Under the pieces are notes generated by a model. The model worked only from the letters and a program-made list of their open reading frames with translations. It ran no database searches and was not told where the DNA came from. 64,000 nucleotides of DNA from Mactra quadrangularis (lineage: Eukaryota > Mollusca > Bivalvia > Venerida > Mactridae). Numbering within the stretch: position 1 is the stretch's first letter; each line of letters starts with the position of its first letter. Made by a program: the position numbers and the translations under genes. Below are positions 3,833-49,500 of this stretch, piece after piece. The DNA is taken from NCBI GenBank assembly GCA_025267735.1, contig CM046307.1:8376258-8440257 (forward strand). Direction: 5' to 3'.

Positions 3833-3954
3833 TGTATATCATTCTACACCTACTCCTGGAAACTAGGATTTTTCTTCTGTAAATTTCTCAACTATATACA
3901 GACTGTATCTATGATTTGTTCAGCAATGACTCTCACAGTTATGAGTATAGAAAG
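3833..3954 (+). CDS. GPCR exon a: ECL1 and TM3
   Basis: Acceptor AG at 3831-3832, donor GT at 3955; 40 codons plus 2 nt. Encodes YTYSWKLGFFFC, the disulfide Cys of TM3, then NYIQTVSMICSAMTLTVMS and I-E with the Arg codon split across the intron. The W-x-L-G spacing before the Cys is typical of peptide receptors. First recognisable exon of the gene in this window. Confidence 0.85.
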
Positions 3955-6900
3955 GTATGTATTTTATAGTTCTATAATATTTATTGTTTTAAAAATACTC
4001 TCAGATAGCTCAACAAGCATCTACGTACCCAGAGGTTATCCTCGTTCTTACGAATCTTGATACTACGCTGAGGCTACCATAATAACGCCCTTAGACAATT
4101 GGCTAATTTGTTTGACCGAGCAATCTGTTGTGTCCAAAGACATGCAACAATGTGTGTCAGTATGCAGTGCGTTTGGACACAAATCAAGCGGTCATGAGTT
4201 GCTTTATTGACCTAAGCCTACATGCGATGTACGATTGTGTGTGCGTCAATGCATTTACCCAATGAATGGACAAGTCCATTGTTTACTGTTTAGTACATGA
4301 GCACTCTAGCTTTTTATATGACATGTACTATTTACAGACAATTTATTAGTTAGCAAACAAAATGTAATGTCCCTATTGGGCTTTGTCATAATTTCGCTGA
4401 CAATCAGACGTAAAGAACTCATTTTTCTCTATCAAAATGACACCACTTGATCTAATTGCTGGCAGCTTCAGATGAATATGTCTGTTACATGGGAATACAG
4501 GCGGAAACTTTCTTGTTGCTGTCTGGTCACAATAAATTATCTGTTTTAATCACGTTTAGGGCTTTTTGCTCACATTTGGGATGCTGTGTCAGCATTAGGA
4601 ATCAAGAGGTCCCAATTTTGAGGCCCACCAAAAATATTTACGAAGTTCTTTGTTTGCGCTTTAATAAATCTGTTTGCGATTGGTACACCCGAAAACCTTG
4701 TTTGAACCCCCATTAGCAATTATTTTGCCACTGTCCGCTAAAAGGCGGAAACCCCCTAGTTTCTTGTTTTGGTAACTTGCTTGTCATTTTGATAATCTCC
4801 TCTGTGCTTTTTGGCTGAGTAAAAGGACTGTGCTTTTATGGTTGCTGGTCCTGATATGTTTTCATACTACTCTTTAAGCAAATGTGCTTGCAATTGCTTC
4901 ACTTATGCTATTGAAAGTGGATGGTTTCAGTCCATTGCGCACATGTGACAGCTGCAAATGAACTGAGAAATGGATTGACAAATACCCGATGACCAAGGAA
5001 TTTGGTTGTTTATAACTTTATATATTATGTGCGTTGTTATTTCAGGTTTATAGCTATAAAACTACCATTGAAAGCAACATATATCGTTAAATCCGGTTTA
5101 TAGCTATAAACCTACAATTGAAAGCTAAATGAATCGTTAAATAATGCTAGAGGTATCAAGCTACAATTGGAAGCTACATATATTGTTATTTCAGATTTAT
5201 AGCTATAAAACCGCCATTAAAAGCTACATATATTGTTATTTCAGGTTTATAGCTATAAAACTACCATTGAAAGCTAGATATTTTGTTATTTCAGGTTTAT
5301 AGCTATAAAACTACCATTGAAAGCTACATATATTGTTATTTCAGGTTTATAACTATAAAACTACCATTAAAAGCTAGATATCTTGTTATTTCAGGTTTAT
5401 CGCTATAAAACTACCATTGAAAGCTAGGTCGATGTGTACAAAAAGACATGCTAGAATAGTTATCATCAGTACATGGATTGCTTCATTTGTCACTGCTATA
5501 CCTGTTATATTTGCCATTGTAAGTATTATATTTTTTGTTTAATTATAGCTTATGCAACTTGGTCTGAGGCACTGACCGCAATTTGAATAGAAGTATGAAC
5601 ACTCTATACTCACAAAACATGGTGAATACTTTCAATTTTGTAGAAGCAGGAGCAGTGGTCCAATGGTAGGACGCGCGCTTATGGATTAAGAGGTCCCGGG
5701 TCCCTTGAGCAAGAAATTAACCTACATTTGTTCCACTCAGGCGTAAATGGGTACTGGATCACCTGCCTGCCTGAAGGTAATTTCAATGACAAGGAGTTAT
5801 CGTATAAGATTGTAAAGTCGGCTGAACAATTATATGGAAGCAGACATTAAACCGCACTTACTTTAACTTATAACTTTTTTATTTTTTAGTCAAAGATTTT
5901 AATTCAATTTAAATAACTATTGAAATACATTAAACTAATAGTACGATGTAAAATGAGGTAATGTGGAGTACAAACTGGAAGTTCTCTCTTGTCCGTTTGA
6001 AGATACCATCATCAATCAATAAAAACAAATCCATTCTGATTTATTTGTCATCTGCTGTCGGCATCCAACGACCACTGCGCCTTTACACAAAAAATCTTAC
6101 AAAAAAGGTTATTGTAAGTGAATTTCATAAATTTTGCAGTTCAAAGTCAGAAGTATAATAAACATAACTATGATATGATATTCAAAAGGTATACAATATT
6201 TTACATAATTCAAAAATATTTGGAATTGATTGGCAAAAAATAACCGTAATATAAATGTTCTTGCTTTTGACTTACGATGATTTTTATCGTAAGATTCTTT
6301 TTGTGAAAAGCGCCACTTGGGTAGGCAGCAGGCGGCTTGATCGTCTGACATCTTATCTCCACAAAAGCTGTTCAGAGGATCATTGTTCTCAATGTTGTAT
6401 GCTTTTAAAATCAGCCTTCACATACTCCGTGTATTATCAAGTTCTATATATGTCATGTTACTTTTTAAATTCGTAAACTGTACAATCTTGAATGTTTGAT
6501 TATTGTGAATGGGTTTCTTTAATCATAGGTTGAAAATGCAAATTCAATTATGCCCAGCCAAATACGTAAACTATCTAAAGTTGTTTCGTCAAATAGGTGA
6601 TACGCTTTCTCATATTGTACTATATTGTAATAGAAAATAGATTGTATATATCTACAATCATGCAGCTTCCAGGGTAATTGTGTTAGCCAGACAATGAGAT
6701 TAATGTAAAGCTCTGGCAAATAATTGCCTGATTGTATGTTTTAAATTGGTTTGAATGAGAACTAAAACCATAATCTCATAGTATCAACAAACGAGAAAAG
6801 TATGTCTTACTTTGCATGTTCAGAGTATGGTCCGGACATAGTATCATTAGTATTGTGATTGCATTTTACTCAGGAGAATACTTTAATAGTAATTCAGTAT

Positions 6901-9900
6901 TTCTGTGTATTCTTATGACCATTCTTTCATCAAAAAGACAGACGATTGATCCTTATTTCATTTGATTCGGTATGTAGATTTATAAATGCATCTATACAAT
7001 GTGTAGATACAATATGCACACGGTCGCATCTCATTACATTAGTAATGCATTAACTTTGATGCCATTGAATTCTACAGAGCACTTTATTAAAATAGTAACG
7101 CAATTTTCTTAGGTGTCTACTTATCAATTTATTGAAAGAAGAATATGACGTCACTTGGTGTGTCGAAAGAACATTATTACTTAAATATTACAATCTCATT
7201 TGTTGTTCTCTAAACAATTCATGCATTATTACATAAGAAATGCAACTTTCTTTGTTGTCTCTAAAGAACATTATTATGTAATTAACGCTTCTTTCTTTGT
7301 TGTCTCCAAAGAACATTATAACAAGAGTAATGCCACATTCTCTGTTGTCTCTAAAGAACATTATAACAAGAATGAAGCAACATTTCCTGTTGTATCCAAA
7401 GATTTTTATAACAAGAGTATTGCGTCAATATCTGTTGTCTACAAAGAACATTATTACAAGAGTGATGCCATATTCTCTGTTGTCTCCAAAGAACTTTTTA
7501 ACAAGAGTGATGCCACATTCTTTGTTGTCTCTGAAGAACATTATTACATAATTAACGCTTCTTTCTTTGTTGTCTCTAAAGAACATTATAACAAGAGTGA
7601 AGCAACATTCTGTGTTGTCTCCAAAGTACATTATTACAAGAGTGGTGCCACATTCTTTGTTATCAACAAAGAACAATATAATAAGAGCGAAGCATCATTG
7701 CTTGTTGTCTACAAAGAACTTTATTTTCAAGATTATGGCATTATTCGTCTCTTAATGAACATCAGAGTTAGGGTGACTAATATTTGTTTTCTTTTTAAAA
7801 ATCATTCTAGGGAGTACAAAAACTGTTTATATTAATTTTAATGAAGCGAAACATGTTTTTATGGGTTGTATAGCGTTCTTTTTATCTAGACTTAAATGAG
7901 AAGATATGTTAGTATCAAATCATGGACAAGTCACTGATCTTTGAATCATATATATCACAATGTGTTCTGACAGTTTTCCAGTCAGTTGCAATCGGAAGAA
8001 CATTAGATCTAGATTCAGACAAAAATATGTTGTTTAGAGAATACCAAATCAATTATGATCCTTACGGTTTAAGATAATCATTTGAATTCACTGACCTGAA
8101 TGAGATTGTATTCTTTATTTCTTGTGCTTACATTAGCGTCTATATACTATGTTCATAGGCCATTTCTGATCCAATGCATAACCACTTTATTTTTGTCTAT
8201 TTTGATTGAATAAAACTCTGAAAAAACTCCATAATTACCTTAAACTCTTGTAATTTTTTGTCATAGAACAAATAGTTTGAGAATTTGTGTGCATTTTTAT
8301 ACATTTTATATTTAAGTCAATGACTGGTACATGTAATTTGTCAAAATAAAGTTTTCATTCAGTTAACATTATGTCTCAATAAAAACGAGCACATATTCCA
8401 TAATTATAATAAAAATCCTAGTCACAGTGTGTATGGACCATACCATGCTAATGTCCACTCTTGTCAAAGTTACCTTAGTCATGAAACAATTTCTACTGAC
8501 ATTCTCCCTCCTACCACTTGTTAAATAATTTATCACAGTGGTCAGTCACTGTCGGAAGTATGCGCCAAATAACTAGTTAATAGCTAAAGCCAGAGATTTT
8601 GCTTTTCCAGATATGGTAAGTAAGTTAACTGGTCGCCGTTATATGACCTTTACAATGTGATTCTAAGACGTTAAATCCAACCAAAAAATCTCTTTACTTT
8701 GCGACGTAGTTCAGAATTCACTGGTTCAGACATTTAATATTGTCATTTATCTAGCTAATATCTCACCCAAATATAGCATACTTATATGTTAAGTAAATGA
8801 ATCACCCGGCTTTGTTCTGACTCTAATGTTGTATGACAAGAGCTTCCTAATGCTGATATAGCACTTGTTTTGACAGTAATGTAAGAATGCAAGCTAAGCA
8901 CTTCTTGTCATTGTTTGCATATGACGTCATGGCCCTTAACAGACATTCATCATTAAGTATAAAATAATTTTTGTTGTTTTAGATCAATCATTTATCGTGT
9001 TCAGATATCTTAAACGAGCATTAAAGCGAGAGTTCAGACAATTAATTGCACAATAATCTTGCTTAGAACGAATTTGAATAACTGATGGTCGCTCTGGGAA
9101 AAAGACATGGCATTTTCTCTTTTTATCTGGATTTTGTGTTATAATGAATTTTATTTTTTGTGAGCATCATTTGTCTTAACAAACTGGTTTTAATATGGAA
9201 TATTTTAAATTTCTAAAGACAAACTGTTATGAAACGGTTTCCTATTAAATAACTTGGATCGCAAGCATAACGATAGGTAGCAAGTTTTTTTCTAGCTTGA
9301 TGAAAACATTTGGAACACCTTTAAAAATGACTGGCTGCATGGTGCATGTTTTTATTTTTCACGATTGCTGACTTATTTCTTCGTTTAAAACATATATATT
9401 GTCAGAGCAGTTATAGGTAATAAGCTGGATAATCGTTAACTAGTATACTCTTCATTTGTAAGAGTTCTGAACTTTAGTTTATAGACGTCGCCATCTTGGG
9501 TTTGCTATAGCTTGAAGCAAAACCGTTCTATAGAATTTGTTTGAAGTCCTTTTTGTCAAACATTAAATCTTTAAATTTAAAAGCTGTATACATGTATTCT
9601 TAAAGGTTGCCTCATTTCTGAGACTGATTTCCTTAAGGATTTAAACGCTTTCAAGTATTTATCGTTCATGAAACTTTGATAAAAGTTTTTACTGTTAAAT
9701 GTCAGTTTTCATAAAACTTAATGCTGAAAGAATTTTAAAGGTTGGATTTAATGAAAACCAGACGTAAATCTTATAAATAATAGAGACGAAGAAAAAAAAT
9801 CAACTTTTTTTTATTTGTAAATTTAAAATGATCAAGATAATAGTTGGGAAAAACATCCAGTCTGTTCAGATTTTGACATGGGTGTGAAAATAAATAAGTC

Positions 9901-12874: not shown

Positions 12875-15800
12875 ATGAATGAATGAATGATCGGGAATTA
12901 CCTTAATTACCCCACTAGCGGCGCTGTTAGAGCTGGATTTGTACATTCGATTGCTTTAATTTACATAATAGGTGACCACTGGGTCTCAGGAAATTTAGAT
13001 TTCGCGGCGCCAATGAGTGTTGCTAATATTATTATAGACACGGCCTATTGATGAAAAAGACAACTTAGTGAATCGTGATGTAGTTAGTCGGTCGTAGAGC
13101 CTATACATTTAAACAATGAAATATCTATTTCGCCTATCTGCTTCATTTCGCCCAAACTTCTCCATTGAGCGTTTTAGTCATACCGTCCCACAATGCAACG
13201 AGTGGTAAGCACAGGAACCAGAGGCGTTCCGAACGTGCAAATTAAGTTCGAGAAAATGAGGGTATGTTATTTCCGTTTTAGAAAAACTGAAACATCGACG
13301 CTCTATTCAGTTTGAACAGTATACAGAAAACAATCGGCCAAAACTCAGACGATACTTTAAAAAGGAAAAGACATTCGTCTTCGTCATTGATTTGAATCAA
13401 TGGTTGAGTTCAAGATTAATAAATCTCCAATGAAAGTTAGAACTGTTGTCCACATCACATCAAGTCACATCAAGTTTATCCAAATATACTCACAAGTACT
13501 TTTATATTTTCTATTTCCAGGAGTATCGTGAAGTTGGTGTAGCACGTATAGCTTACTGGTGCCACAAACATTGGTTAACTAAACCAATATATCATAAAGT
13601 ATTTGAGCTATACATGATAACATTGATACTGATTATACCCTTCAGTGTCATGATTGTTACTTATACTTGGATTGCTAACATTATCTGGCACGTGGCCTCA
13701 AGAAGAGCTGATATGCGTTCTGGAAGGTAAGCGAGATCTTTTTTTATATACTAGGGTTAACGCCGTGTCAACACAATTAAGGCAATTTTAAAGTGGCCAG
13801 CGCCTCAAACATATTCTCGTACCCAGAGGTTATCAAGATTCTCGATCTAACGCTTGATCAAGAAACTTGATAACCTCTGGGTACGAAAATGACCAAACCT
13901 AGCTTGCCTAGAATTTCTCAGTGGAATTACTTTTAATCTACATAGTAATGAAGTAATGATTGGCTATACGCAGAGAGCCGTATGTCTGCATGAATAATAC
14001 TCAATTCTATTGGGGTTTTTGTATTCATTGTTTTTAACAATGAATACTCTGTTACCAATAGATTAATAGCGGTATTCCGATCGGAGTCCTATACTGACCT
14101 ATTGACCTATATATCTAATCAACAAAACCGAACAGCATCCGGATAATTCCGCTACAATAAAATAGTTCGCAAATAGTTCTTTTGTTTCATCGATCATCTG
14201 TGTATTCCTACGCGTCAATTTAATTACGCATTTAACTCGATCTACATCAAACCTTTCTTCGAAGTGACACCGAGTATTGACAAATTTGTGAACAATTGAA
14301 CAATGGTAGACAAATTATTACGTAACTGATAATCGCGGATGTATACATCGATTTCATTCATGAAAAATTATGAATGAAACTACGTTTCCGTATCAAGCGC
14401 TATAGTCACGTGACTACAAATATGCATTTGCTGACAGACATCGGAAGACAAAGGAATTGAAGGAAAGTACTCGAAACTAAATCAGTTTCTCTTAATGCAG
14501 TTTACAGTCATTCACATTATTGGAAGGAATTGTTTGCAAACAATTCCTTTCTATGTCAGCGCTCCCAGAAATGAGAAAAAGAACGAACAACAGTCAACAC
14601 ATAATTGAACTCTGTTGCGACCCAGAAAATAATATAGCAACAGAAAAATGTGTATACTCGAGTACTATCAATTGCAGACGAGTTGAAAAAAATACAAATT
14701 TAAACAAATAGTACTTAAAATTATGATATTCAATGTTTTCACATTAATAAAACTTTATTCTATCTGTGTACGGAGAAAAGTTATTTTGTGCATTGCGCAT
14801 TATATGTCATGCATTTGTATATGTATATAAATTTAGCATAATAATTAGCGTCGTGTCTGTGGCCTAGTGGTTAGCATGTCAGACTTCCAATCATGTGGTC
14901 GCGAGTTCGAATCCTAGGCGCGTAACATTAATTTTTATTAATTTTTTTTTTGGTTTAGGCTACAAAAAATTGATCATGTTCGTCAGATTTACGCACTTAA
15001 AATTCAGAAAATGGAAAAAATTTTTTTGCTCTAGTTACTTTTCACTTATAAAATGAAAACATCAATTATAAATGCAACCATGTTTGATCATCAGTTGAAC
15101 ACTGACGTAAACTTGATGTTTTCATCAACTCTACACTGCTCTAGTTATGTGACGTCATGTCCCCCTGCTGTGTTATTTACGACAAGCAGGTAAGACGGGG
15201 TAGAATATTTAACATTATAATTGTTAATGCCCCAAAATACTCGACTGACTTATTTTGAAATAAATTTTGCATAACGTACCCCAAGACTATATTTATATAC
15301 CTTAAGGTTTAGTCAATTTTTATTTCAGAAGGGTTCTGATGTAATTGTTTTCTTTCACATTATTTATGACAAGCCTCTATTTATTCACTTTAAAGTTTTC
15401 CAGTTTGGTCCATTTTCATTTTATAGGGATGCTGACTCTAAAATCCTCATACATGATGGCTTAAATAATCTTAGTAGTTGTTTGTTGTTTAGTTGTTCCC
15501 ATATCATCCAAATAATATAACTTTATTTATACTCAAAAAGTCAACAAGACTCGTCCATTTATATTTACGGGGGTGCTCAACTGGTACTCATTCTGGATTA
15601 CTAAATTATATTGAGCAGTTGTATGTTGTTGAGTCATTCTCTTATTTACCCAATAACATTAAGACTTTACTAAAACACCAACATCAACAGGTTTGATCTA
15701 TCATGATGTTAGCCGAGCTTATTCTAAATTGTACAGAAATATTGGAAGTATTTAATTAAAGGTTAATATTGAATGAATTCACTTAGTGTATTAGCTATGC

Positions 15801-18800: not shown

Positions 18801-21800
18801 CAGTTGTCTAAAAATAATAACACTTATTTTTTGACACAATTACAGACACTGAATGATATTTTGAAATTATAGAAAAAATAAACCAAATCTGTAAACTAGT
18901 ACCTTTAAATTATAAACATTGAATGGCTCATAAAATAACAGCTACTTTTCTCTCTTTAAGCTATTCTTATCAGTCCTATGAATTTTGACTGCACATGTAT
19001 ATTTTAAATCATCCGCCCTAAAAAAATATTAGAGTGCTTACCTAGAACATCTGTAAAATATTTTTGTGGAGAGGATTCTGAGTAAATTATAACAATTTAC
19101 AGACTAATGAGGGGCATTTTCGGAAAAAATAAAAGTAACAACAATTTATTCGTTATTTGAATTTTTTCTATTTTTGACTGGTGTTAGAATTCGAAGAAAA
19201 GCAAATTTTAGCATACTGTCTAAAGATCATATGACTACATACCCTAATCGTACAAAATAAAATTTTATGCACACTTATAAAGCATGTTACCACTTACTAA
19301 CCTTTTCATATTTCGCGTGCCTTAGTCACGTGACCCATTATACTTCCAGCTGTATATCTGACGTAAGCGGTGATCAACAGCAGAATGGAAACATTGAGGG
19401 CAAGGTCAAGGTCACTCCTATTGTACCCCTAAAGTCACCATTAGCTGTGGGACCATCATCCAAGGCTTACATGGATGATGATAAAACGAGGAAACAGGTA
19501 AATCGGGTAAATCTTTATTTACAAATAAAACTATATAACAAAATGTATAAAGCTGTATACGACGAAAGTCTAAATGTATGACATTGCATTTAATTATTTA
19601 TACTGGGTTTATCGCTGTTTCAACACAACTTTTAGGTTATTTTATGGCGACCAGCGCACCTAACCTAGCTTTCCTAGACCCTTTTTTATAACCAGTACTC
19701 AACTTCCCTTCCACAAAGCCGGACTCTTCCCTATATACTTTATTAATGGTGGAATTGAAATATTGTCAAATCATGGAAGGGTATAACCTCCCGGGATGGG
19801 ACTCATAACCGCATCCTCTTCTGAACACTAGATTTGAAATCCAGGCGCTTCCAACTGCGCTACAAACCTGGGTTACGACATTGTATTATTCACACTTAAT
19901 CTGACGTGTTATGCAAATGTGAAATAGTCGGGTGTTGCACTCAACAATACCGTTGATGTATCAAAATATCAAAGGTTAAACACAATAAATGCAGTTGACC
20001 ATGTTGTGGTTGATTTCAAAACCAAGCGTGTGATTCCAAATGTATGTTTAATAAGATAGCCAAACGTGCAAGAGTCTTCAGCTTAACAATTCTCATGTCA
20101 AACTCATCTATCATCAGTAACATTCGAAACTTACTCACTAAACTCATAACGAACCCGTAGCGCTTTTTCACCAAAAAAAACTTACGATAAAAGTCATCGC
20201 AAGTCAAAAACAAGAAACAATAATAACATGGTGATTTTTTGGCCTATCAATTCTAAATATCATTGAGTTATGTAGACTATTGGACACCTTTTGAATATCG
20301 ATCATAGTTTTGTTTATTATCCTGCTGACTTTGAACAGCAAAATTTATGAAATTGGCTTACGATATCTTTTTTCGTAAGAATTTTTGTAAAAAGGTGTAC
20401 TGGGCTAATTTAGATGAAATAAAGTACTAACCACTATCACTTGTTAGAAGTTATAACAACGCTATACATTTCCCCCTGTCCGTTCAATAACGACTTTTAG
20501 CGAACGTTACAGGTTCGAGACAACTCAACCCGAAGACAACTCAACCTATGGATAACTCAACCCAAAGTTGGGACAACTCAACCCGTTAGTAAAGGGTTTG
20601 AGTTGTCTCGGGATGAGTTGTCTTTGGTTGAATTGTCCCGACCCTAACGTTACAGAACGTTATGGAACGTTCGGAGTAATTGAACAGGCTACAGGTATCG
20701 CTGTGCAACGAAGATTGATAATTTAACGATATGAACAAAACATTGATAAAAATCCCCCTGCTTAATACGTGAAAAGCTTTCTAATTTCATTATTTTTTTA
20801 AACACTTGTTAGAATCAGACTTTCTTTTTTATGGAAAATAAAACTGTGTATTGAAATCTAGTGTTTGACTAAGCCTTGGATATGATTCACAGTCAGGAAA
20901 ACAATTGTTTCACAATTCTAAATCTTCAATTATGCATCAAATAACTTTTTGTAATTGGTATCAAGTGGCGTAGAATACTCAATAGTAAGGACGCTTGACT
21001 ATAAGTCCGGAGATTCTAAATTCAAACCATCTGCAACCACAATACTTTCTTTCGTTACACTCCATACGTAACGCGGGCTAATTGACTGTCAAAATTTCGT
21101 TTTCATGAATATGCACGAGGCAGGGGAGACCAATCTTCTTCCAATGAAATCGCATGTTACTCTTCGATAACAATGATGTCATACTGGAGTTTTACTTTAA
21201 ATAGAAGCCAACTCACTTATCTTTAAAAAATTGTTTCGTAATTTCATTGGCTAGTCTTCGCAATGGTTTCCTTGCGGAACCAATGAAACTGCCTCATTTA
21301 TTATTCATGATTACGAGATTTTGCTAACCAAATGCCCCACGATACATAACACAGCATAGCAAAGTAATGTATTGTGGGATAACCGACGATGAGTTCGATT
21401 CCATGACAGACATATCCTTCCATGAAAAATGGGCAATAACTCTGACTTTTCATACAAGTGAAGTTGTATGCTTCTTGTTAAATGGTAAGGAAGTACCAGC
21501 GAAAGAAAGCACTTGGAAATATGGTCATTTGGCACCAGTTGATAACTAAATAAATAATTGTAAAAAAGCGTAAAATCCAAATAAAATTACTTTAAATCAT
21601 AAAGAAATATTTATAAATGTAATAGTCATTTCTACGGAGTCCCAAATAAATCATTTTAAATACTGTTTTAATATAAATTCTTTTTTTCGAACTATGATTT
21701 CGTTTTTACGAAATAATATTACCGGTTTAAACGAAATAATCTTTTCGTTTTTAGGCAACATTTTTCATATTTACTATTCCGTCTTAACGAAATAATATTA

Positions 21801-24800: not shown

Positions 24801-27800
24801 TCATTCTAGAATTAATGCCCGAGTTCTTGTTAACCTTACAAAAAGGCGAGTTTCTTCATGTTGCGATTCAATTTCATGGTGCTTTTCGCTATTCGTCGAG
24901 AATATTTTATCCATACCTCAGTGATCAGTCAATCAACTTAGTGTCCCTTTAAAGTATACAGTTTCCAACGCCACTCACGGTTAAAATTAATTTTGTGAAA
25001 GTATGAAAATAGCTTTCAAAACATGGTAATTATTTTTTATTCATTACAATATGTTAACCATTTTAAATGGATTAGATTTAGTACAAAACTTGCAATTTCA
25101 AAAATATTTGACAAACAATTTTAACAAGACTCAGTAAATACCTCCCTAGCATATGAAAATAGAATAATTGTTAATGTGTCCATTAAATTCTATGTTGACA
25201 TTATCAAAATAGCTAACATGTTAAAAAGTTTAGAAATACCATGTACAATCAAATATGTATATTTTTAGAATTATTTAGCTGTCACAAAACATAGTTTTTA
25301 GTTAGGGATTTCATGCCTTAAGAGGTTTAGACCTCCAGACATTGTCTTGGAACAAGTCCAAAGCAATCACTTTCGCAACTGTACGACGCAGTTCTTCGTA
25401 GTTTAAACTCAAAAGTGGTTTGTTGGAATCGAATCTATCCCCGGATTTACTACACCCTACCAACTGCATGATTTTACTAGATAGGTTAGTTTTATGAATA
25501 TAACCCGATCAAACAACAAGCTTACATATAGCGGTGAACCGTTACAACTGCTGTCAGTTCACTTTTTCCATATCAAAAGACTGTCAGTTCGAGAATGGCT
25601 AGTTTTTTTCTGTGTATTTTAAGTATAATCAAATAGTCATGGAGAATTACAGCTGAACAATTTAATCAAGATGTCAATGAATGTTTCATTTCTTGAAGAA
25701 TTTATAGGTTTCAACTACGCCGAATGAAATACAACGTTTCTTTTGTCTTTAAAAGTCATTGGTATTAAAAACTGAAAGAACTCCAAAGTCTTGCATTCTC
25801 TTAATTGAATTTTAAAAAATCTAATGTATTTTCTAGTGCAATTGTAATTAATTATTAAAAAGCACTGATATTGTCATTTGCGCCCCAGAGATGAATGGAA
25901 ATTGGTTCAATAAACTCACCCAGCTGCTTATCAGATTAAATGAAATAAAAAATAAACAATGCAAACGAGGCAGATCGATGACTTTTCCCAGAAAAGTACA
26001 AACTTTGCAACAAAGACTTTTGAAAAGAATCGAATGACCTACCTAAGACCAAAATTTAAGGAATTTTCATGCAAATCATACCAAAACATAAGCATGAACA
26101 TAAGCTTGGAACTAAAGAATCTAAACATCTTCAGAGATAGTGATAGTAGACGACTTGTCAACGAGATTTAGTTATAAATATATTTAAAAAAACATAAAGT
26201 CTAAATAAACCAAAACATATCAATAAAAACGGTCGACACGGTCCTTAATCAAAACCTTTAAAGTTTTAATCGGGACTGTGCCGGCGGCCTGTGAATAAAA
26301 AACACACGAATAGATCCATGGTGCTTATATCGCGTGACTTTTTGTGATTGGTGTTGATCAAAATTTCAAAACAAATGACAGTCAAAGCAGGTTATCTTCT
26401 ACATGTATAACCTTTTTATAACTTCACCATTTGTATAGGATACACTTAAAGTGGCCACCCGCTCCCTGTAATAAGTAACCCGTATGTTGTAATGTAATTA
26501 TATAGAACACACACAGTTTAACATTTAATGTTCTTTATTAATGTGGTATTAATTATCACAGTTCCACAAAATAGTTATAGTTATAAAGTTATAAAGTCAT
26601 CAATTGTATTTAAGTTGAAATATTATTAATTTAGCAGAAACTTATTAAGGCGATGTTCGTGCCTGCACCTCTATGTCTTAACTCACGGTCCTGCGGTCCG
26701 TATAAACCTAAGTCAATGAAACTATGGTTGCCGGTTGCTATATGGATACAATTTAACAATAAACAAAACTCATGTAACAGTTTTCAATGTATAACAATCA
26801 TTGTTAGAACATTGTTTCTTTGCTTTCCTACATTGTTGATTACTCAAGGTATGATGCAATAACTAATATAAAACATTTAAATCCCCAGGTGCAGGCCATA
26901 ATAAATATACAAATCAATAAGTATTAAATATGTAGTTACAAAACATTATCATACATATTCTTAAACGTTATACAAAAGATAGTCAATGGTATTTAAAACT
27001 GTAAACAACAATAAAAATACATATAAGAATGAGACACACCGGTAAGCTATTAATAATAGAATTAACTTTTCATATATCTATATTTTGGGATTATTTCTAA
27101 ATTTAACAATTGTAATGTTACTACATTACAATGTAAAATATTTATTTTGTAACGTAAAACGGCTTAATTTTTTAATGTTTCATCTCGTCGTTTCACTAAA
27201 ACAAAACAGTACAGTGTACATATTTTCCCCGTAAGCCTTCCACTTATAGTATACTTCGCAGGAGAAGCGAGTATTCCACGTAACTCAAAAAAGAAAGCTG
27301 AGCAGCATATTATCAAAAATCTTACGATAATTTTACATAACAATATAGAAGGATTTACGAGTAAAATCGGTCGTAAGACGCTTATTAATACGGGCTCCGG
27401 AAGTAAAAAGGTTGATATTTTTACCTACACCAATCACGAAAGCCACGTGTCATTGGCACCGTGAATTCTTGCGATAGAGAAATGTAAAAAGCCAACTGCT
27501 ATTCTGATAGTGATCTTTGTTTTATGTTTCAGGTCGTCATGATGTTGATCATCGTGGTCATTTTGTTTGCTGTATGCTGGACACCAGTACTGGTCAACAA
27601 TGTCCTTGTAGCCTTTGGTCATCTGGATTACCTTAACATGGGTATATTGAAACCAATCAGGATGATATTCCATCTCCTGTCGTATGCTAACAGCTGTGTC
27701 AACCCTTTTGTGTACGCTTTCATGTCCAAGAACTTCAGGGATGGATTCAAACAATCCGTACTTGCTTGCATCAAAGGACAGTCCTATCTCAGACGATCAC

Positions 27801-27880
27801 AAACTAGCGCGAGATGTATGACGTCAACAGCACGTGGTTCATCGACCAATGGCGATACAAGACTGAGCCAACTTGCTTAA
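3833..27880 (+). CDS. Class A (rhodopsin-like) peptide-type GPCR, 5'-partial, five exons
   Basis: Seven-transmembrane receptor of the plasma membrane, probably for a neuropeptide. Exons 3833-3954, 5395-5518, 13521-13726, 19350-19497 and 27533-27880 join in phase (948 nt, 315 residues plus stop). Visible in order: TM3 with its conserved Cys (FFFCKF) and an E-R-F in place of D-R-Y; ICL2 and TM4 (ending IPVIFAI); ECL2 Cys (YWCHKHW); TM5 with Pro (LIIPFSVMIVTY); a hydrophilic ICL3; TM6 CWTP; TM7 NPFVY; helix 8 with a possible palmitoylated Cys (VLACI). TM1 and TM2 are missing; their exon was not found and is presumably upstream of the window. Motifs recall the ghrelin/TRH/neuromedin U/CCK-type peptide receptors, but I cannot assign an ortholog or ligand. 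Introns are 1.4, 8.0, 5.6 and 8.0 kb and full of repeats. Confidence 0.9.
4019..4165. repeat. Dispersed repeat shared with 43850-43945 and 13818-13885
   Basis: Contains 'cgtacccagaggttatc' (4024-4040), the same arm as the foldback at 13.8 kb, then a stretch ('ggctaatttgtt', 'tgtgtccaaagacatg') shared with 43850-43945 in the last intron of the - strand gene. Probably a decayed DNA transposon. Confidence 0.6.
5041..5394 (+). repeat. 50-bp tandem array duplicating the exon b acceptor
   Basis: About seven imperfect copies of a 50-bp unit lead into the true exon, which is the eighth. AG dinucleotides followed by 'tttat' recur at about 5045, 5194, 5244, 5294, 5344 and 5394; the copies near 5095 and 5145 are degenerate. 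Each unit contains the 'ttgttatttcag' acceptor and the first 30 or so nt of exon b. Because 50 is not a multiple of 3, use of an upstream copy shifts the frame and meets an in-frame TAG in the next unit. Confidence 0.9.
5395..5518 (+). CDS. GPCR exon b: ICL2 and TM4
   Basis: Starts with 1 nt completing the Arg of E-R-F and ends in phase 0 at donor GT 5519. Encodes FIAIKLPLKARSMC, a basic ICL2, then TM4 with the conserved Trp (ISTWIASFV) and IPVIFAI. The first 30 nt of this exon and its acceptor are the last copy of a 50-bp tandem repeat that runs upstream, so several near-identical acceptor sites precede the true one. Confidence 0.88.
5645..5868 (+). mobile_element. tRNA-derived SINE, family B
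   Basis: tRNA-like head with an A-box-like 'tggtccaatggtaggacg' and a B-box-like stretch, then a body with 'gcaagaaattaacctac' and 'attgtaaagtcggctgaac'. Copies of the same body lie at 44640-44882 (inverted) and 60607-60835. Confidence 0.75.
6076..6314 (+). mobile_element. MITE-like element, family 1, copy 1
   Basis: About 240 bp with terminal inverted repeats of roughly 30 bp ('cacaaaaaatcttac' against 'gtaagattctttttgtg'). Internal sequence 'gcagttcaaagtcag' and 'tgatatgatattcaaaaggt' is shared with copies at 20159 and 40046. Short open frames across it are not genes. Confidence 0.85.
7070..7745. repeat. 45-bp minisatellite with open reading frames
   Basis: About 13-15 copies of a unit containing 'tttgttgtctctaaagaac' and 'attataacaagag'. 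The unit is 15 codons, so frames without a stop stay open across the array; the longest reads VVSKEHYNKS-like repeats for 211 codons. It lies inside the 8-kb GPCR intron, is open in more than one frame and on the other strand, and has no flanking splice structure. I treat it as noncoding tandem DNA, not a gene. Confidence 0.85.
8440..8690 (+). mobile_element. SINE family A, 5'-truncated
   Basis: Body only: 'agtcatgaaacaatttctac', 'ggtcagtcactgtcgg', 'gtatgcgcc', then 'ggtcgccgttatatgacc' and an ending like 'acgttaaatccaacc'. Full copies are at 11510 and 23222. The tRNA-like head is missing. Confidence 0.8.
8700..11505. other. GPCR intron, no gene recognised
   Basis: AT-rich intronic sequence. 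The only notable feature is a run of 14 G at 10420-10433. Short ORFs on the - strand have no domain, splice or codon support. Confidence 0.5.
11510..11812 (+). mobile_element. SINE family A, full length
   Basis: tRNA-like head (A-box 'tggctagctcagttgg', B-box 'gagttcgattcc') followed by 'gggcatactttcgtggagc', 'gtcagtcactgacgaaagta', 'aggaggagtgagtaggttga', 'cgccgttatatgacc' and an A-rich 'aacaaacaaacaaac' tail. Same order as the copy at 23222. Confidence 0.88.
12770..12890 (+). repeat. Microsatellite (TAA)n then (GAAT)n
   Basis: About 70 bp of uninterrupted TAA from 12802, then four to five GAAT repeats. It follows 'agagcgctatacaaatgcgg', a sequence seen again near 62965 with the same lead-in, so the microsatellite is probably the 3' tail of a non-LTR element or SINE. 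Confidence 0.85.
13521..13726 (+). CDS. GPCR exon c: ECL2 and TM5
   Basis: Pyrimidine-rich acceptor (ctatttccag) before 13521, donor GTAAG at 13727; 68 codons plus 2 nt. Encodes EYREVGVARIAYWC, with the ECL2 Cys expected to bond to TM3, then TM5 (LYMITLILIIPFSVMIVTY) and the start of ICL3 (ASRRADMRSG). Phase 0 at the start matches exon b. Confidence 0.9.
13750..13925 (-). mobile_element. SINE family C fragment split by a foldback insertion
   Basis: Left part ('gttaacgccgtgtcaacac', 'aaagtggccagcgcc') and right part ('aacctagcttgcctag') are the reverse-oriented tail of the SINE at 19605-19885. Between them sits the palindromic insert 13818-13885. Confidence 0.65.
13818..13885. repeat. Foldback insert with perfect 20-bp arms
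   Basis: 'cgtacccagaggttatcaag' (13818-13837) is exactly inverted at 13866-13885 around a 28-nt loop. Part of the arm recurs at 4024-4040. Looks like a small inverted-repeat element nested in an older SINE fragment. Confidence 0.8.
14524..14549. repeat. Perfect 26-bp palindrome
   Basis: Centred on 'tttgcaaa', with arms 'aaggaattg' and 'caattcctt'. No spacer. Its role is unknown. Confidence 0.8.
14850..14932 (+). mobile_element. tRNA-like SINE head
   Basis: A-box-like 'tggcctagtggttagca' and B-box-like 'gcgagttcgaatcct', followed by A/T-rich sequence. Acceptor-stem pairing is poor, so a truncated SINE head is more likely than a tRNA gene. Confidence 0.6.
16270..16515 (-). mobile_element. SINE family A, inverted copy
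   Basis: Reverse complement of the family A order: 'ttaacgccatagcaacac' at the left, then 'gttaaccaaaaag', 'agtatgccccgcccatg' and a degenerate tRNA-like head with 'cgacccctcgatcagtag'. Confidence 0.8.
17210..17408 (+). mobile_element. SINE family A, 5'-truncated
   Basis: Begins 'tctacggtcattctgtcc', then 'gacagtcgtcagtcactgac', 'gtaggtggactgaccgc' and 'gcataaaacccaaca'. No tRNA head. Confidence 0.8.
17833..18243. mobile_element. MITE-like element with long inverted ends
   Basis: Left end 'ggtggcaataccacgtgact' is inverted at the right as 'agtcacgtggtattgccac'. The match extends inward with gaps for about 75 bp ('gatacggtttcaagaag' against 'ctttttgaaaccgtagc'; 'cacgactcc' against 'gagtcgtgg'). 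No ORF. Confidence 0.8.
19350..19497 (+). CDS. GPCR exon d: hydrophilic third intracellular loop
   Basis: One nt completes a Ser codon, then 49 codons ending in phase 0 at donor GTAAAT (19498). The peptide is polar: GDQQQNGNIEGKVKV, a Pro/Ser/Lys stretch, then YMDDDKTRKQ leading into TM6. It is a full exon of ICL3, so skipping or altering it would change the loop that contacts G proteins. Open frame, both splice sites and matching phases support it. Confidence 0.85.
19605..19885 (-). mobile_element. SINE family C, full length, inverted
   Basis: In the - direction: tRNA-like head ('gtagcgcagttggaagcg', 'ggatttcaaatctag'), then 'gagtactggttataaaa', 'gtctaggaaagctaggtta', 'gcgctggtcgcc' and 'ataaacccagta'. 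The same body is at 34915-35215. Confidence 0.78.
20159..20398 (-). mobile_element. MITE-like element, family 1, copy 2 (inverted)
   Basis: Reverse-oriented copy of the elements at 6076 and 40046. Ends 'gcgctttttcacc' and 'gtaaaaaggtgtac'; internally 'ctgactttgaacagc' is the reverse complement of the family's 'gcagttcaaagtcag'. Lies in the GPCR intron between exons d and e. Confidence 0.85.
20476..20692. mobile_element. Palindromic element with gacaactcaaccc repeats
   Basis: Ends are inverted ('cctgtccgttcaataacg' and, reversed, 'cctgttcaattactccg'). Inside are four direct copies of '(ga)caactcaaccc' followed by three inverted ones ('gggtttgagttgtc', 'gggatgagttgtc', 'ggttgaattgtc'), which can form a long stem. 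Probably a MITE. Confidence 0.75.
20965..21045 (+). mobile_element. Decayed tRNA-like SINE head
   Basis: 'gtggcgtagaatactcaata' and 'ttctaaattcaaacc' look like degenerate A and B boxes around a 'gactataagtccgg' anticodon-like region. Too decayed to be a tRNA gene. Confidence 0.4.
21370..21549 (+). other. Short unassigned open frame
   Basis: 60 codons ending HLAPVDN and a stop, with moderately protein-like composition (ITLTFHTSEVVCFLLNGKEV). I recognise no family, and it sits in the GPCR intron without clear splice sites. Could be a pseudogene or transposon fragment, or chance. Confidence 0.2.
21985..22135. repeat. About 62-bp tandem repeat, three copies
   Basis: Three copies of 'aacatacatgaacatacaat' with 'atgatgtat' spacers, in the GPCR intron. 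Noncoding. Confidence 0.8.
23222..23508 (+). mobile_element. SINE family A, full length with 12-bp target-site duplication
   Basis: Flanked on both sides by 'aacaaaattctt' (23210-23221 and 23509-23520). Contains the tRNA-like head ('cggctagctctgttgg', 'gggttccattcccggg'), the conserved body and an A-rich tail. The intact duplication shows retroposition and marks this as one of the younger copies in the window. Confidence 0.92.
24000..26230. other. GPCR intron, no gene recognised
   Basis: AT-rich. Short + strand ORFs at 24552 and 25959 have lysine/asparagine-rich, low-information translations and no splice or domain support. Confidence 0.5.
26237..26280. repeat. Short hairpin
   Basis: 'cacggtcc..aatcaaaac' is inverted as 'gttttaat..gggactgtg' with a 7-nt loop. 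Intronic, function unknown. Confidence 0.6.
27533..27880 (+). CDS. GPCR last coding exon: TM6, TM7, C-tail
   Basis: Acceptor tttatgtttcag before 27533; 115 codons and a TAA stop. TM6 carries FAVCWTP, ECL3 is short (AFGHLDYLNMGILKP), TM7 reads LLSYANSCVNPFVYAF, followed by helix 8 (MSKNFRDGFKQSVLAC) and a Ser/Thr/Arg-rich tail ending LSQLA. CWxP and NPxxY make the class A assignment firm. Confidence 0.95.
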   Translation, partial: VVMMLIIVVILFAVCWTPVLVNNVLVAFGHLDYLNMGILKPIRMIFHLLSYANSCVNPFVYAFMSKNFRDGFKQSVLACIKGQSYLRRSQTSARCMTSTARGSSTNGDTRLSQLA

Positions 27881-39482: not shown

Positions 39483-39724
39483 AGCCGCGGCCGTGGCGTA
39501 GTGGTTAGCATGTCTGACTTCGAATCCGGAGATCCGGGTTCGAATCCCGGTCGCGGCAGGTCATACCCTATACATGAGTTGTCGGCCTCGTGGTAGGGTA
39601 AGTTAGTACTGGTGGTAGAAAAAGTGTCCAGGAAACCTATAGTAGGAAAAGCTGGCCGTCGTGTATATGACCTATAGATGTGTTGAATGCGACGTTAAAA
39701 AAATAAAAAAAAGAAAATTAAAAA
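39483..39724 (+). mobile_element. tRNA-Arg-like SINE with 12-bp target-site duplication
   Basis: Flanked by 'agaaaaatacat' at 39471-39482 and 39725-39736. The head folds like a tRNA: acceptor stem gccgcg/cgcggc, A-box 'tggcgtagtggttagca', B-box 'gggttcgaatccc', anticodon loop 'cttcgaa' (TCG, Arg). The body ('gtgtccaggaaacc', 'gacctatagatgtgttg', 'gcgacgttaaaa') and A-rich tail show it is a SINE. Confidence 0.9.
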
Positions 39725-43583: not shown

Positions 43584-46500
43584 CTGGAAACAGAGAAAGA
43601 TGGAAGGATTCAAGTTAATACTGATTCAGTAAAAACCAAGGCGAACAAAATTTATCAGAGAATAAGTACATGATAAAAAGAACAAAGACATTAAATGTGT
43701 GAATAATATAAATATGCAAAAATATGCAGTCATATCGACAATTCGATTCGAGCCATACTTAAAATATACCATACTTAATTGTTTTTTCGTGCATTCACAG
43801 TCGAATAAGTCATTGCAGGCATGTTAATTGTTTTCAAACTAATTGACATTATACTGAGGCTACTTTAATCACGCCCTTGGACAAGTGGCTAATTTGTTAA
43901 ATAAAGTAATATTTTGTGTCCAAAGACATGTGACTATGTTTGTCCAATATACCCTATCTTTCACGGGTGAACGGATTATGAATATTTTGAAATGGCAAGT
44001 CAGGCGTAATGTCAACTAAGACCTTTTGAAATTTCAATAAAAGTTTGAATAAGTTATTTTAATAGACATGCATTTTAGTATGTACTTCGACATATCATGA
44101 CTTAACATTGACATTTTGTTAATGTATTACACGAATGTTAACTTAGCGACATCTTTGCTATTTGCAACAAACCACCAATGTCTCTTTTGCTATTTGCAGA
44201 AAAAACACTAAGATCTCTTTTGCTTAGCAAGTTTTACAATACCAAGAAGCAAAAAACTTTAACATTTTATTAATGCAAATTGAAAGACATTTTCACTTAA
44301 ACAATAACAAATGCAGATACAATCAATGTATATAATTAAATCCCAACCCTCGATACATATATACCATGTTATGCTTCATATGGCCAAAAGGACACAGCAT
44401 AAGAAAAGGAAAAATGAAATAAGAAGAACAGCTACCTGTATGAAGATTAGAATTATCACCAGTCTGGTGTTGTAGTTGAGAACATGGTGTGTTAGTAGAT
44501 GATGTCATACTAGCTGATGATGATGATGACGTAGAAGATGTACTGGTGGCAGTAGCTGATGATGTAGATGACAAACTTGTACTAACTGTAGATGCTGGGG
44601 TAGAACCTTGAATGAAAAGTTAAAGTGTAAATTGAGGTTTAAAGTCTGCTTCCATATACATGTTCTGCTGACTTTATAATCTTGTATGAAAACGCCTGAT
44701 CATTGAAATCACCTTTAGGCAGGCTATCCCTCACAGTACCCACTTACACCTGAGTGGAGTAGAACAACTGTAGGTTGATTTCTTGCTCAAGGAAATTAGC
44801 AGTGTCCCAAGTAGGGATCGAACTCGGGACTTCTCGATCCTTTAGCGCGCGTCCTACCACTGAATCACTGCTTTTATAAAGGTTATTGTATATACATGTA
44901 CATATCAACTATGTAATGAATAAAATAGCTTAATTACTAATAGATACAACGTTGATAAAATAATATGTAAATGTAACACTTTATAGATGGGATTTCCTCT
45001 TGCTTACAGATACATTATTTTTATGTGATTTGTACCATTATGGTTACTATATCAATACAATAATAACAATATTTTACATTATTTAATATAACATTATGCA
45101 TAAAACATCAACAAACCTTTTGTAACGATTGCAGGAGGTTGTGTCCAATATGGTAGAGGAAAATGTGTCCCTGTAAAAATAATCACATTAGAAATAAGAA
45201 AGTATTTATCACTAAACGTGACAATATGGAAATAAATAGAGTTTTTAATCTATATGAAATAAAACAGAAGTAAACGTGTGAATTTACTGCAAGTTAACAA
45301 GAAAACTTGCGCATACAAGTATATTTATATAACTTATGACGTTCTAGAAATGTAAGAACTAACAGAGCTAGTGCTGTTTTTAGAAATACATCTAAATTGT
45401 ATTTATACACTGACGAACGGAACGATCGTTTTCAAGTCAATCGTTTTCATTAAATGCATTTCATTTACTTAAGCAGCAAAAAGACCACTCTGCTAGCTAA
45501 GTCGGAAGCACACTACTACTAATTCCAAATCAAGTAGGGCAATTACCAGTCACTGAAAATGCATAAATACTAATTAACAGCTAAATCAAGAGATTTAGCC
45601 TTTCCATGAACGTAGAGTAGATTAACTAAAATGTGTTGCTACGATGTTAAACCTTATCTTAACAATAGCTGTAAGAAACTTTACTGTAAATGAACACCAC
45701 TAATGGAAAAACATTATTATTAAAAACGAACTTAGTTTTAATTTATATCCAAAACTCTTATAGGTAAAAACTGGATAAAGAAATTGACAACATATTTCAA
45801 ATATATTTACGGTTATATTGATCACAAAATACATCTGTACTACTAGTTGATGGTACCACGTTACCATAGCGACCAGGTAAATAACAAGTTTGTGTGTTTC
45901 CACTATAATAGAATCCTGAAAATAAATAAAAAATATACCAGAGCTAGTTTATTAACCTGAAATATATATAGTAAATTACGGTATTTTAATATTTTTAATT
46001 AGTTAACCCTTAGCAAAATACATTTTTCAATCCGATTATGTTTCTACAAAGTCAGATGAGCCACAATGACATAGCAATATGTCTTGTGCATTTTGTTGAT
46101 AAAAACATGACCAGCATCTAATGGCGATGTTCTAAAGTAAATTCTGTATCTAATTAATGAACTTATCATTTAAGTAAACAAACCGGACTCATTATCAAAG
46201 ATAAAATAAAAACATTCAAACCTTTGCAAAAATCGTTTTGTTGTTGTATACAATATTTAGCACAGTCAGATATGGTAACTGAATGTATTATTACAGATGA
46301 TATTATCTTGTATGTTCCAGCATTCACAGCTTTAAAATCTTTATCATAATAACCTAGAAAAACAAAAAAGTTAAAATATACGAAAATTTATACATCGACG
46401 TATCATTTGACAATTATTGCATGTTGCATGCAAAAGCACACAAAATACCTAAAACAAAAATAACTATAGCATTGTCAAGTACGAGGCAACTTCCTAGTTA

Positions 46501-49500
46501 GTTTACAGAGAGCAGAGCATATGAAGTGCTATGATACACAAAAATTTAATAAAATCACCTATGTTGGTCCCAACAATGTTGTTGAATTTACATTATATCA
46601 TTATTATAATACAACGTAGCTTATTTTGACTCGTTCCATACTGAACCATTATACGACTCAAAGACACAATGTGACAACTGTTATTACTTGTAATCCTTCG
46701 TGTTTTTGGTCTTGAAATATTTTCTATAGTCATTCTCTTAGTTACTTTTGCATCAAGCAGGAAAGTTTAGCCACTGACAAAGGTATGTGTATAGTTATAA
46801 ACATAGGCTCTTCGAGGAACCATAAGTAAAATGACTGAACACTACAACAATACGCACATACTACTTACTTGTGTAAATATTACAATTGGTTGTTGTTTCA
46901 CTACTTTGTGGACCATATTGTCTCTCATTGAATGATATACATTGTTTAGTACTTGGACAATATTCAAACATTCTGCAAGCACTTGTTTTAGTACATGTTT
47001 GGGCACATTTTTCATTAGATTCGACTGTGGTGTATTGTACAGAGGAAGAAGTAAGTGAAACCATTCCATTTAGTTTAACATATTCTGTCAAATATTTACC
47101 TGTAAAATAAAAGCAGATTTTTATACTTGTATTATTACATGGAATGTTTCATTTAAAAAGCTGGCTAAGAAATAATATATATTGCATTGGATTACCAACA
47201 CAAAAGTTTTGTACGTGAAATTGTGTTAAATAGTTTGTTTTTTTAATTCATGCCCAATTTATCGATTATTGAAGGGTTGTCATGGAGTTGATTTTGTTGA
47301 CTGAGATAGTACAGAACGTTTTAGTTAGACAAACGCTTTACAATATTTACCCATTTTGGTTAAACTATGTATGAGGTCACAGGGAAGATTCAATGGGCAA
47401 AGTTTTACATGTCACTATAAAGACACAGTAAGCATTAAGTTTATAATAAAATATCTCTTATACCTATTTGTCTTCTAAAATTTCAAACAACTTTTGAAAC
47501 TGAACTAATAATTTGAAATAGAATAAGAATAATAAAACAATACTAACGGTTATAAATTGTACAATTCACATTTGGTGTAAGTGTTGAATTGTCCATCTGA
47601 TCAGGATGAGTCTTGGTAAGTATACATCTTATATCTGAACCTACACAATAACTAAACCCTCTACATGTTATATCAGTACCAGATAGACATAACTGTGCAC
47701 ATTCATTTATGTTTAAATTATAGGTTGTAGAACCACTACTGATTGTCTTTGATTTTGAATACTCGGAAAATGACGAAAAGGCAAAGTCTGAAATCAAAAA
47801 TACAAACACAATGTACTGTCAAATACAGAAGTATCTATATAAAACAAAAATTTTAGTAAGAAAACATTTTGTAGATTTATTTGTTTCAATAAATGACCGT
47901 ACTTTTAGAATAAAAAAATATTTTAACTAAAATATTCATATTCTGTCTTAGGTAATGTTTTGCTTAACAATTTCATTTGTTTCCATGCAAACATTATGGA
48001 GTACAACGTACAATACTGGTATCGACTTTACTTTATAATGTGTATGTTACTTTTGTTTCAACATTCATTAATGTGAGTATTGAAACATTAACATACCCAA
48101 CTTTTAGACCCATCAGTATTTTCGCTGTTTGATACAGCCATATAGCAATGACAGTAGATACATTAGTTTTGCGATAACATAATCTACAAGCCTTGACCCC
48201 ATGTTGTGATCGATAATGTAAGATAAGGATCATAGATCACGATTATAACCATATAGATTTCACTTTATCATTGGGGGATTAAATTCCTTGTAGACAGATG
48301 TTTTATAGATTTGTATATTGTCCATTGTGCATGAGGTGTAAATTAACACTACTTTAGTGGTAACATTTTGTATACATGACAGTTCAGTTGAAACAGGGAT
48401 TTTATACAACAAATGTGTATATGTTATATTAAAAATGTTATATATATATAAAATCCCTGGTTGAAACAAAATTAACGATTGAAATAATTTTCTTATTGTT
48501 TAATAATGTTAGAAATGAGAAATATATTACAATATAACATCTCCATTTTAAATAAATTTATTGTCCGTCCGTGAATTTTTATACACCATATTTTCATTGA
48601 AACAAAAGCTTTAAAGTTAAATTGCAACAACTAATTCAATCCTCATAGTTATTGTTAAGCCGTCAATAACTATTTTTGTTTCGTTTGTCGGTTGCAAAAT
48701 TTTACTTTGACTGAAATGAACATGCATTCATTAGTATAACTGTTTGATTATTTTTTACATTTTTAATAAAATTGTTTAACATGAATTAACTAGTCAGTAA
48801 AAAATGTTTTCAAGGTATCTTCGTTTAAAGAAATAATAACGGTAGTGGTGAAATTAAAACAGTTGCATGTCGATCTTTCAGTTATTATTATGCCGCCAAA
48901 ATAAACTACACCACTTAATTAATGTGTAAAAGTATTCATTTATCAGAGAGATATGAATATATTAAAATGCAAATTATATACATATAAATATATTATAAGC
49001 AATAAAGGAGTATTTTCTAGTAAAATTATTTTAAAGTAATATTATTTTCATAATACTGATTTCATCGATTCGTATAGTCGATAATCAAATCTACCAAAAA
49101 TTACATTTTCTTAACTATCTAGAATAATTTTTTTTCTAAACCTTTGTTGCTAGATCATGTGACAGATACAACTAATTAGCAACAAAACAGAGACAGGAAG
49201 GTTATCCTGTCATAAAAGTGTACCCGCTGTGCCTTGCTATACACAGTGTATTATACAATCACACCAGAGGTCCATTTATCCGATAGCGCACATTATAAAA
49301 TTAAGAAAAAATATATGAAAAATCCAAAAAATTTGGAAAAAAGTGCAAAACAGACCAAAACTTCATGTAGATATTTTAAAAATAAAAAATGCTCCGGAAA
49401 CTAGAATCATACAGCTTTCTCATGTCGTTTGCACAAATTTGATCAAAGGACCAGAAAGGCTTTATTTTTTAACTTATATCAGCAAGAGTATCTCTTTTCC

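Follow-up and report, generated by a model that had tools for sequence, protein, structure and literature searches.

The analysed window comprises 64,000 nucleotides of Mactra quadrangularis DNA (contig CM046307.1, hereafter C15, positions 8376258-8440257 of the 979-Mb assembly GCA_025267735.1). Its first half contains, on the plus strand, a rhodopsin-family receptor gene in which the 3' splice site of one intron lies within a tandem array. To judge from its sequence, the gene is a peptide-receptor-like member of the rhodopsin family of G-protein-coupled receptors (GPCRs). The joined exons matched Pfam 7tm_1 (PF00001) with an E value of 9.1e-41 and 140.5 bits, compared to a cut-off of 30.5 bits, and their top match among solved structures was galanin receptor 2. 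The top protein match was a hypothetical protein of Mactra antiquata, which aligned at 95% identity; among the named matches ranking after it were allatostatin-A receptor-like proteins from Mercenaria and Ruditapes. The following exons were assigned (TM, transmembrane segment; a slash between bases or positions marks a splice point).

3833..3954, plus strand: exon a, TM3; ends within the R codon of the E-R-F motif, phase 2; donor GAAAG/GTATGT
5395..5518, plus strand: exon b, intracellular loop 2 to TM4; donor GTAAGT at 5519
13521..13726, plus strand: exon c, extracellular loop 2 and TM5
19326..19497, plus strand: exon in intracellular loop 3
27533..27880, plus strand: last exon, TM6, TM7, C-terminus and stop codon TAA

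The first coding exon was found neither in the window nor in the preceding 10 kb; a second version of the locus has it further upstream. Joined through the acceptor 5394/5395, exons a and b translate as ...MSIE-R-FIAIKLPLKARS..., and none of the 12 aligned homologues (12 aligned out of 87 found) has extra residues at the E-R-F junction.

The first-pass annotation of this DNA had described a tandem duplication of the 3' splice site before exon b, and this description is borne out. Tandem Repeats Finder (TRF) reported a repeat of 50 bp with 7.9 copies and 84% matches at 5034-5426, whose unit consists of about 20 nt of the intron end and about 30 nt of the start of exon b, thus spanning the acceptor. 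A 33-base core of the unit had six matches in the window with at most three mismatches, all of them within the array, while 100 shuffles gave none. Eight units could be anchored, which are designated A1 to A8; the corresponding units of the second version are B1 to B16.

5012..5016, plus strand: branch-point-like word ATAAC, 31 nt before the unit-1 acceptor; loose consensus only
5026..5075, plus strand: unit A1, acceptor 5045/5046; identical to B1 in 50/50 bases; longest upstream AG-free stretch (48 nt)
5076..5174, plus strand: units A2 and A3, degenerate, tract lost; AG of A3 obtained by a different alignment; counterparts B2 and B3
5175..5224, plus strand: unit A4, acceptor 5194/5195 (AG/AT); identical to B7
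5225..5274, plus strand: unit A5, acceptor 5244/5245; 150 nt upstream of the true site, in frame, stop TAG
5275..5324, plus strand: unit A6, acceptor 5294/5295; stop TAA
5325..5374, plus strand: unit A7, acceptor 5344/5345; passes TCG, stop TAA
5375..5424, plus strand: unit A8, true acceptor 5394/5395 and first 30 nt of exon b

The acceptor AG and its pyrimidine tract are retained in the true copy (exon start 5395) and in five of the seven upstream units (exon starts 5046, 5195, 5245, 5295 and 5345), in agreement with the earlier count of about five usable-looking sites. Units 2 and 3 are degenerate. The anchored place of A3 ends in AG, but its tract is gone; it was scored as a lost acceptor and reached -7.2 on a rough acceptor score, as against 4.7 to 7.4 for the other AG-bearing units of the window. 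This score was taken from a hand-set table rather than from a trained model.

Once joined to exon a, all five AG-bearing upstream units lead to a premature stop. The claim that an upstream copy shifts the frame and runs into TAG holds for the window as far as a stop is concerned, and has to be modified otherwise. The acceptor before 5245 lies a multiple of three upstream of the true site and keeps the frame, and its reading still meets TAG; TAG also ends the readings from 5046 and 5195, while those from 5295 and 5345 end at TAA; and one unit of the second version, B15, is open. It had further been proposed that a synonymous change, 'tttatcgc', removes the TAG from the true copy. This idea was abandoned. 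The true copy of the second version reads TTTATAGC and lacks the change, and in the window the C of TCG rescues nothing, as the reading from 5345 runs through this true-copy codon and ends at a TAA two codons beyond it.

Arrays with a period of at least 20 and at least three copies occupy 1938 of the 84000 bases examined around the locus, the present array included, and about 0.2 overlaps of such arrays with the nine splice boundaries of the GPCR in the window are expected by chance. The intron is also present at three paralogous loci of this contig, situated near 37.36, 22.99 and 11.19 Mb; TRF detected no array of about 50 bp at their acceptors, one of them having a 24-bp repeat of 2.5 copies some 270 nt before the acceptor. 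An array common to the receptor subfamily was rejected on these three loci.

A search of the whole genome with the array region revealed one other place, near 133.1-134.0 kb of C15 on the minus strand. Beyond these two loci the array unit was not matched elsewhere in the genome by a search that skips simple or very common words and scores the best candidates only. The second version is an inverted colinear copy, which aligned in 29 blocks of at least 400 bases, with unaligned gaps between them, over 76 kb of window and flanking sequence. Block identity ranged from 88.2 to 99.7% (median 94.2%), with 18 of the 29 blocks at 93-96%; four off-register alignments of a 45-bp array (73-79%) were excluded from these figures. 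A probe at 2.0 Mb of C15 paired with 6.456 Mb on the minus strand (94%), and a weak receptor match at 1.00 Mb paired with 7.465 Mb on the opposite strand. The contig from 0 to about 8.5 Mb hence resembles two inverted arms, with the pairs 0.13/8.38, 1.00/7.47 and 2.00/6.46 Mb. The second version is probably the other haplotype, joined backwards to the chromosome end in the assembly; a true duplication is the alternative. Identity between the versions amounts to 99.1 and 99.7% in two adjacent stretches at 48030-52117, as against about 95% in the flanking blocks, which would fit a recent exchange between haplotypes.

Over 975 nt in five exon blocks (six of these nucleotides belong to an intron end, and the first exon was left out), the two versions differ by 16 synonymous changes and one replacement, so that the GPCR exons look constrained in both. 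This ratio makes a functional gene probable, and with it at least partial use of the last acceptor copy.

The array of the second version comprises 16 units, compared to eight in the window. The expectation that the copy number varies is supported insofar as two places of one assembly, presumably two haplotypes, differ. Two other minisatellites also differ in copy number: a 43-bp repeat at 1015-1261 has 5.7 copies in the window and 6.7 in the second version, and a 45-bp repeat in the next intron (7224-7724) has 11.1 copies and about 14, respectively. The period of the latter is divisible by three, and an uninterrupted frame of 216 codons extends over 7185-7832.

Within the second-version array, the acceptor AG is kept in 11 of the 15 upstream units and lost in four. 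A stop follows in ten of these 11. The exception is B15, whose acceptor precedes the true one by 51 nt; its reading is open and in frame and would add 17 residues, turning E-R-F into E-S-F. Besides A1 and B1, which agree in 50/50 bases, only A4 and B7 are identical across the versions, and the degenerate units pair as A2/B2 (B2 being tied with A5) and A3/B3. Because of these identities and pairings, the array is likely to be older than the split of the versions. Left-edge units pair across the versions while inner units mostly do not. At the right edge, the true unit B16 is identical to the decoy B8 and, judging by this identity, is homogenised with it across the splice site. An exclusion of edge units from homogenisation is thus apparent on the left only; in the second version, the right edge does not appear to be excluded. 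Exon b shows two differences between the versions in its first 30 nt, which belong to the array, and none in the other 94; both are synonymous. Because the differences are confined to these 30 nt, the turnover of the array seems to extend into exon b. In the same segment (5396-5425), both versions encode leucine just before the conserved loop-2 proline, a position occupied by H, Y or F in all 12 aligned homologues, and K-L-P is read by 14 of the 24 units of both versions from their own acceptor.

It is likely that the array is a minisatellite of the 'mirage' type with a fast turnover, in which the leftmost unit holds the ancestral intron end and the rightmost one the real exon, and that the working transcript uses the last copy. 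The last 20 nt or so of the intron and the first 30 nt or so of the next exon would have been duplicated in tandem, whereupon unequal exchange or slippage would have multiplied and homogenised the unit, leaving the ancestral intron end in the leftmost unit and the real exon in the rightmost. Quick turnover may account for the eight and 16 units of the two versions and, since the exon start is itself the last unit, may also rewrite that start within synonymous limits. Reading frame and purifying selection suggest that the working transcript takes the last copy, while the upstream acceptors would be mostly ignored or their products lost to nonsense-mediated decay. The ordinary birth and turnover of minisatellites would suffice for such an array; a regulatory role is possible, yet unnecessary. 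Decoys as separate exons were set aside, without a systematic donor scan.

The minisatellite of IFI6 (6-16) reportedly contains multiple splice donors at an exon edge, with alternative use described; there the donor is repeated, here the acceptor. The closest precedents come from amphioxus, where mirage minisatellites have been described as tandem repeats across exon-intron boundaries in the globins BflGb6 and BflGb9, Adh3, troponin C and PGBD5 (PMC3087553, PMC3902484). In BflGb6, the 3' end of the intron and the 5' part of the exon are repeated, with six and three copies in two haplotypes, and the amphioxus arrays are reported to keep splice signals in many, not all, units and to undergo concerted evolution (PMC3087553, PMC3902484). 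The present array resembles them in its anatomy, in that it spans an exon-intron boundary and retains the acceptor in many but not all upstream units (5/7 and 11/15); its eight and 16 units would parallel the copy numbers of BflGb6 if the two versions are haplotypes. The array differs from those of amphioxus in occurring in a mollusc GPCR, in its 50-bp unit (150-160 bp in BflGb6, 10-72 bp in Adh3) and its eight and 16 units, and in the identity of the true exon unit with a decoy, seen in the second version. Regular splicing is reported for the amphioxus arrays, and those of Adh and troponin C are said not to yield aberrant mRNAs (PMC3902484). In humans, internal tandem repeats located where exons and introns meet (PMC2812944) are likewise minisatellites that alter exon or intron edges and have been proposed as a route to new introns; they are variable repeats in paralogues from segmental duplications, and the excerpt of that paper describes no acceptor array. 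As in NAGNAG tandem acceptors and AG scanning (PMC1431707), several AGs compete after the branch point, but here they are mostly about 50 nt apart and the pyrimidine tract is repeated as well. Among the open-licence papers listed, judged by title and abstract, arrays called mirages came from amphioxus only and no mollusc case appeared, which is weak evidence that none has been published. The bivalve locus, with eight and 16 similar acceptors and stops behind nearly all of them, offers a natural test of how the spliceosome might choose the last of many near-equal acceptors. It could likewise show whether arrays of this kind alter coding exons through homogenisation or give rise to new exon sequence.

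Several observations do not sit easily with an exclusive use of the last copy. On the rough score the true copy is not the top acceptor in either version: A6 (7.4) exceeds A8 (7.0), and B9, B10, B11 and B14 (9.3) exceed B16 (7.0). Following Gooding et al. 2006 (PMC1431707), branch-point ranges were set by AG-exclusion zones. Both versions have branch-point-like words within the range of unit 1 (AG-free for 48 nt); B16 (AG-free for 43 nt) has such a word at -47 only. None was found in the range of the true A8, of A4-A7 or of the other AG-bearing decoys, where the words follow a loose consensus whose absence from a stretch of about 20 nt is, by a head estimate, not rare. By contrast, all four other introns of the GPCR in the window carry at least two such words in range. 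The ATAAC at 5012..5016 may represent the ancestral branch point, which seems to have stayed with the first copy while the exon stayed with the last. On a literal view of the branch-point result, strong competition is to be expected from A1, a poison site, so that some splicing to decoys is likely. The open, in-frame B15 could moreover mark the start of real use. AG scanning would favour the first copy while protein constraint would require the last often enough, and it is this tension that appears to be the interesting part of the locus.

It is conceivable that the poison acceptors tune the receptor: the branch point before unit 1 would divert splicing to decoys, the stop-carrying transcripts would decay, their share would grow with copy number, and haplotypes would differ in output. 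The stops behind 5/5 (window) and 10/11 (second version) AG-bearing upstream units fit this proposal, as do the branch-point words and the AG-free stretch of unit 1, which are the most numerous and the longest, the decoys that outscore the true copy and the difference in copy number. It nevertheless appears unlikely, given that the proposed stop-removing change is not conserved, that the acceptor has been lost in 2/7 and 4/15 upstream units, so that decoys are not strictly kept, and that no array of about 50 bp occurs at the same intron in the three paralogous loci inspected; the regular splicing reported for amphioxus (PMC3087553, PMC3902484) lowers the odds of tuning further. A distinctly unlikely extension sees the array as a heritable and rapidly mutating splice dial for a receptor of the neuropeptide type, in which the ancestral branch point beside a poisonous first acceptor causes more transcripts to be lost with more units, and the 51-nt unit of the second version yields an in-frame acceptor. 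If this were true, the receptor made through B15 would carry 17 inserted residues at the loop that contacts the G protein and would lack the conserved arginine.

B15 might also signal that exonisation of a decoy is under way, with 17 residues added to intracellular loop 2, E-R-F changed to E-S-F and a new receptor isoform as the result. The reading is open through B15 into exon b, and the authors of the amphioxus work propose that new introns and exons may arise from mirages (PMC3087553). Still, this explanation is very unlikely: the junction of B15 is CAG/T, with a rough score of 3.7 compared to 7.0 for B16, no branch-point word lies in its range, the unit is absent from the window version, and with 16 AG-bearing upstream units in the two versions together, a single open one could, in our judgement, be due to chance. 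An assembly artefact, by which the array is over-copied or the entire second locus false, is highly improbable. The second locus does lie within an inverted duplicate of the chromosome end that looks like a scaffolding error, but the array occurs in two separately placed versions that have edge units in common and differ in the inner ones, and the misplacement of a haplotype creates no repeats. Recursive splicing, by which the intron would be removed stepwise from unit to unit at AG/GT with the decoys as harmless ratchet points, can be called extremely improbable. While 14 of the 18 AG-bearing units, true copies included, read CAG/GTTTAT or TTTATC or TTTATA variants and splicing regenerates AAG/GT, GTTTAT lacks the purine at +3 that all four real donors of the gene have and the G at +5 that three of the four have, and the GT is broken in A4 and B7 (AG/AT) and in B15 (AG/TT). 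It was rejected, as the start of the unit is a weak donor and not a strong 5' splice site directly following the acceptor.

Outside the receptor gene, ARAGORN predicted a tRNA-Arg (tcg) at 39487-39558, which may be a tRNA-derived repeat. Six-frame translation of 46000-58000 revealed several cysteine-rich stretches on the minus strand, which we take to resemble repeated domains of the PAN/apple type.
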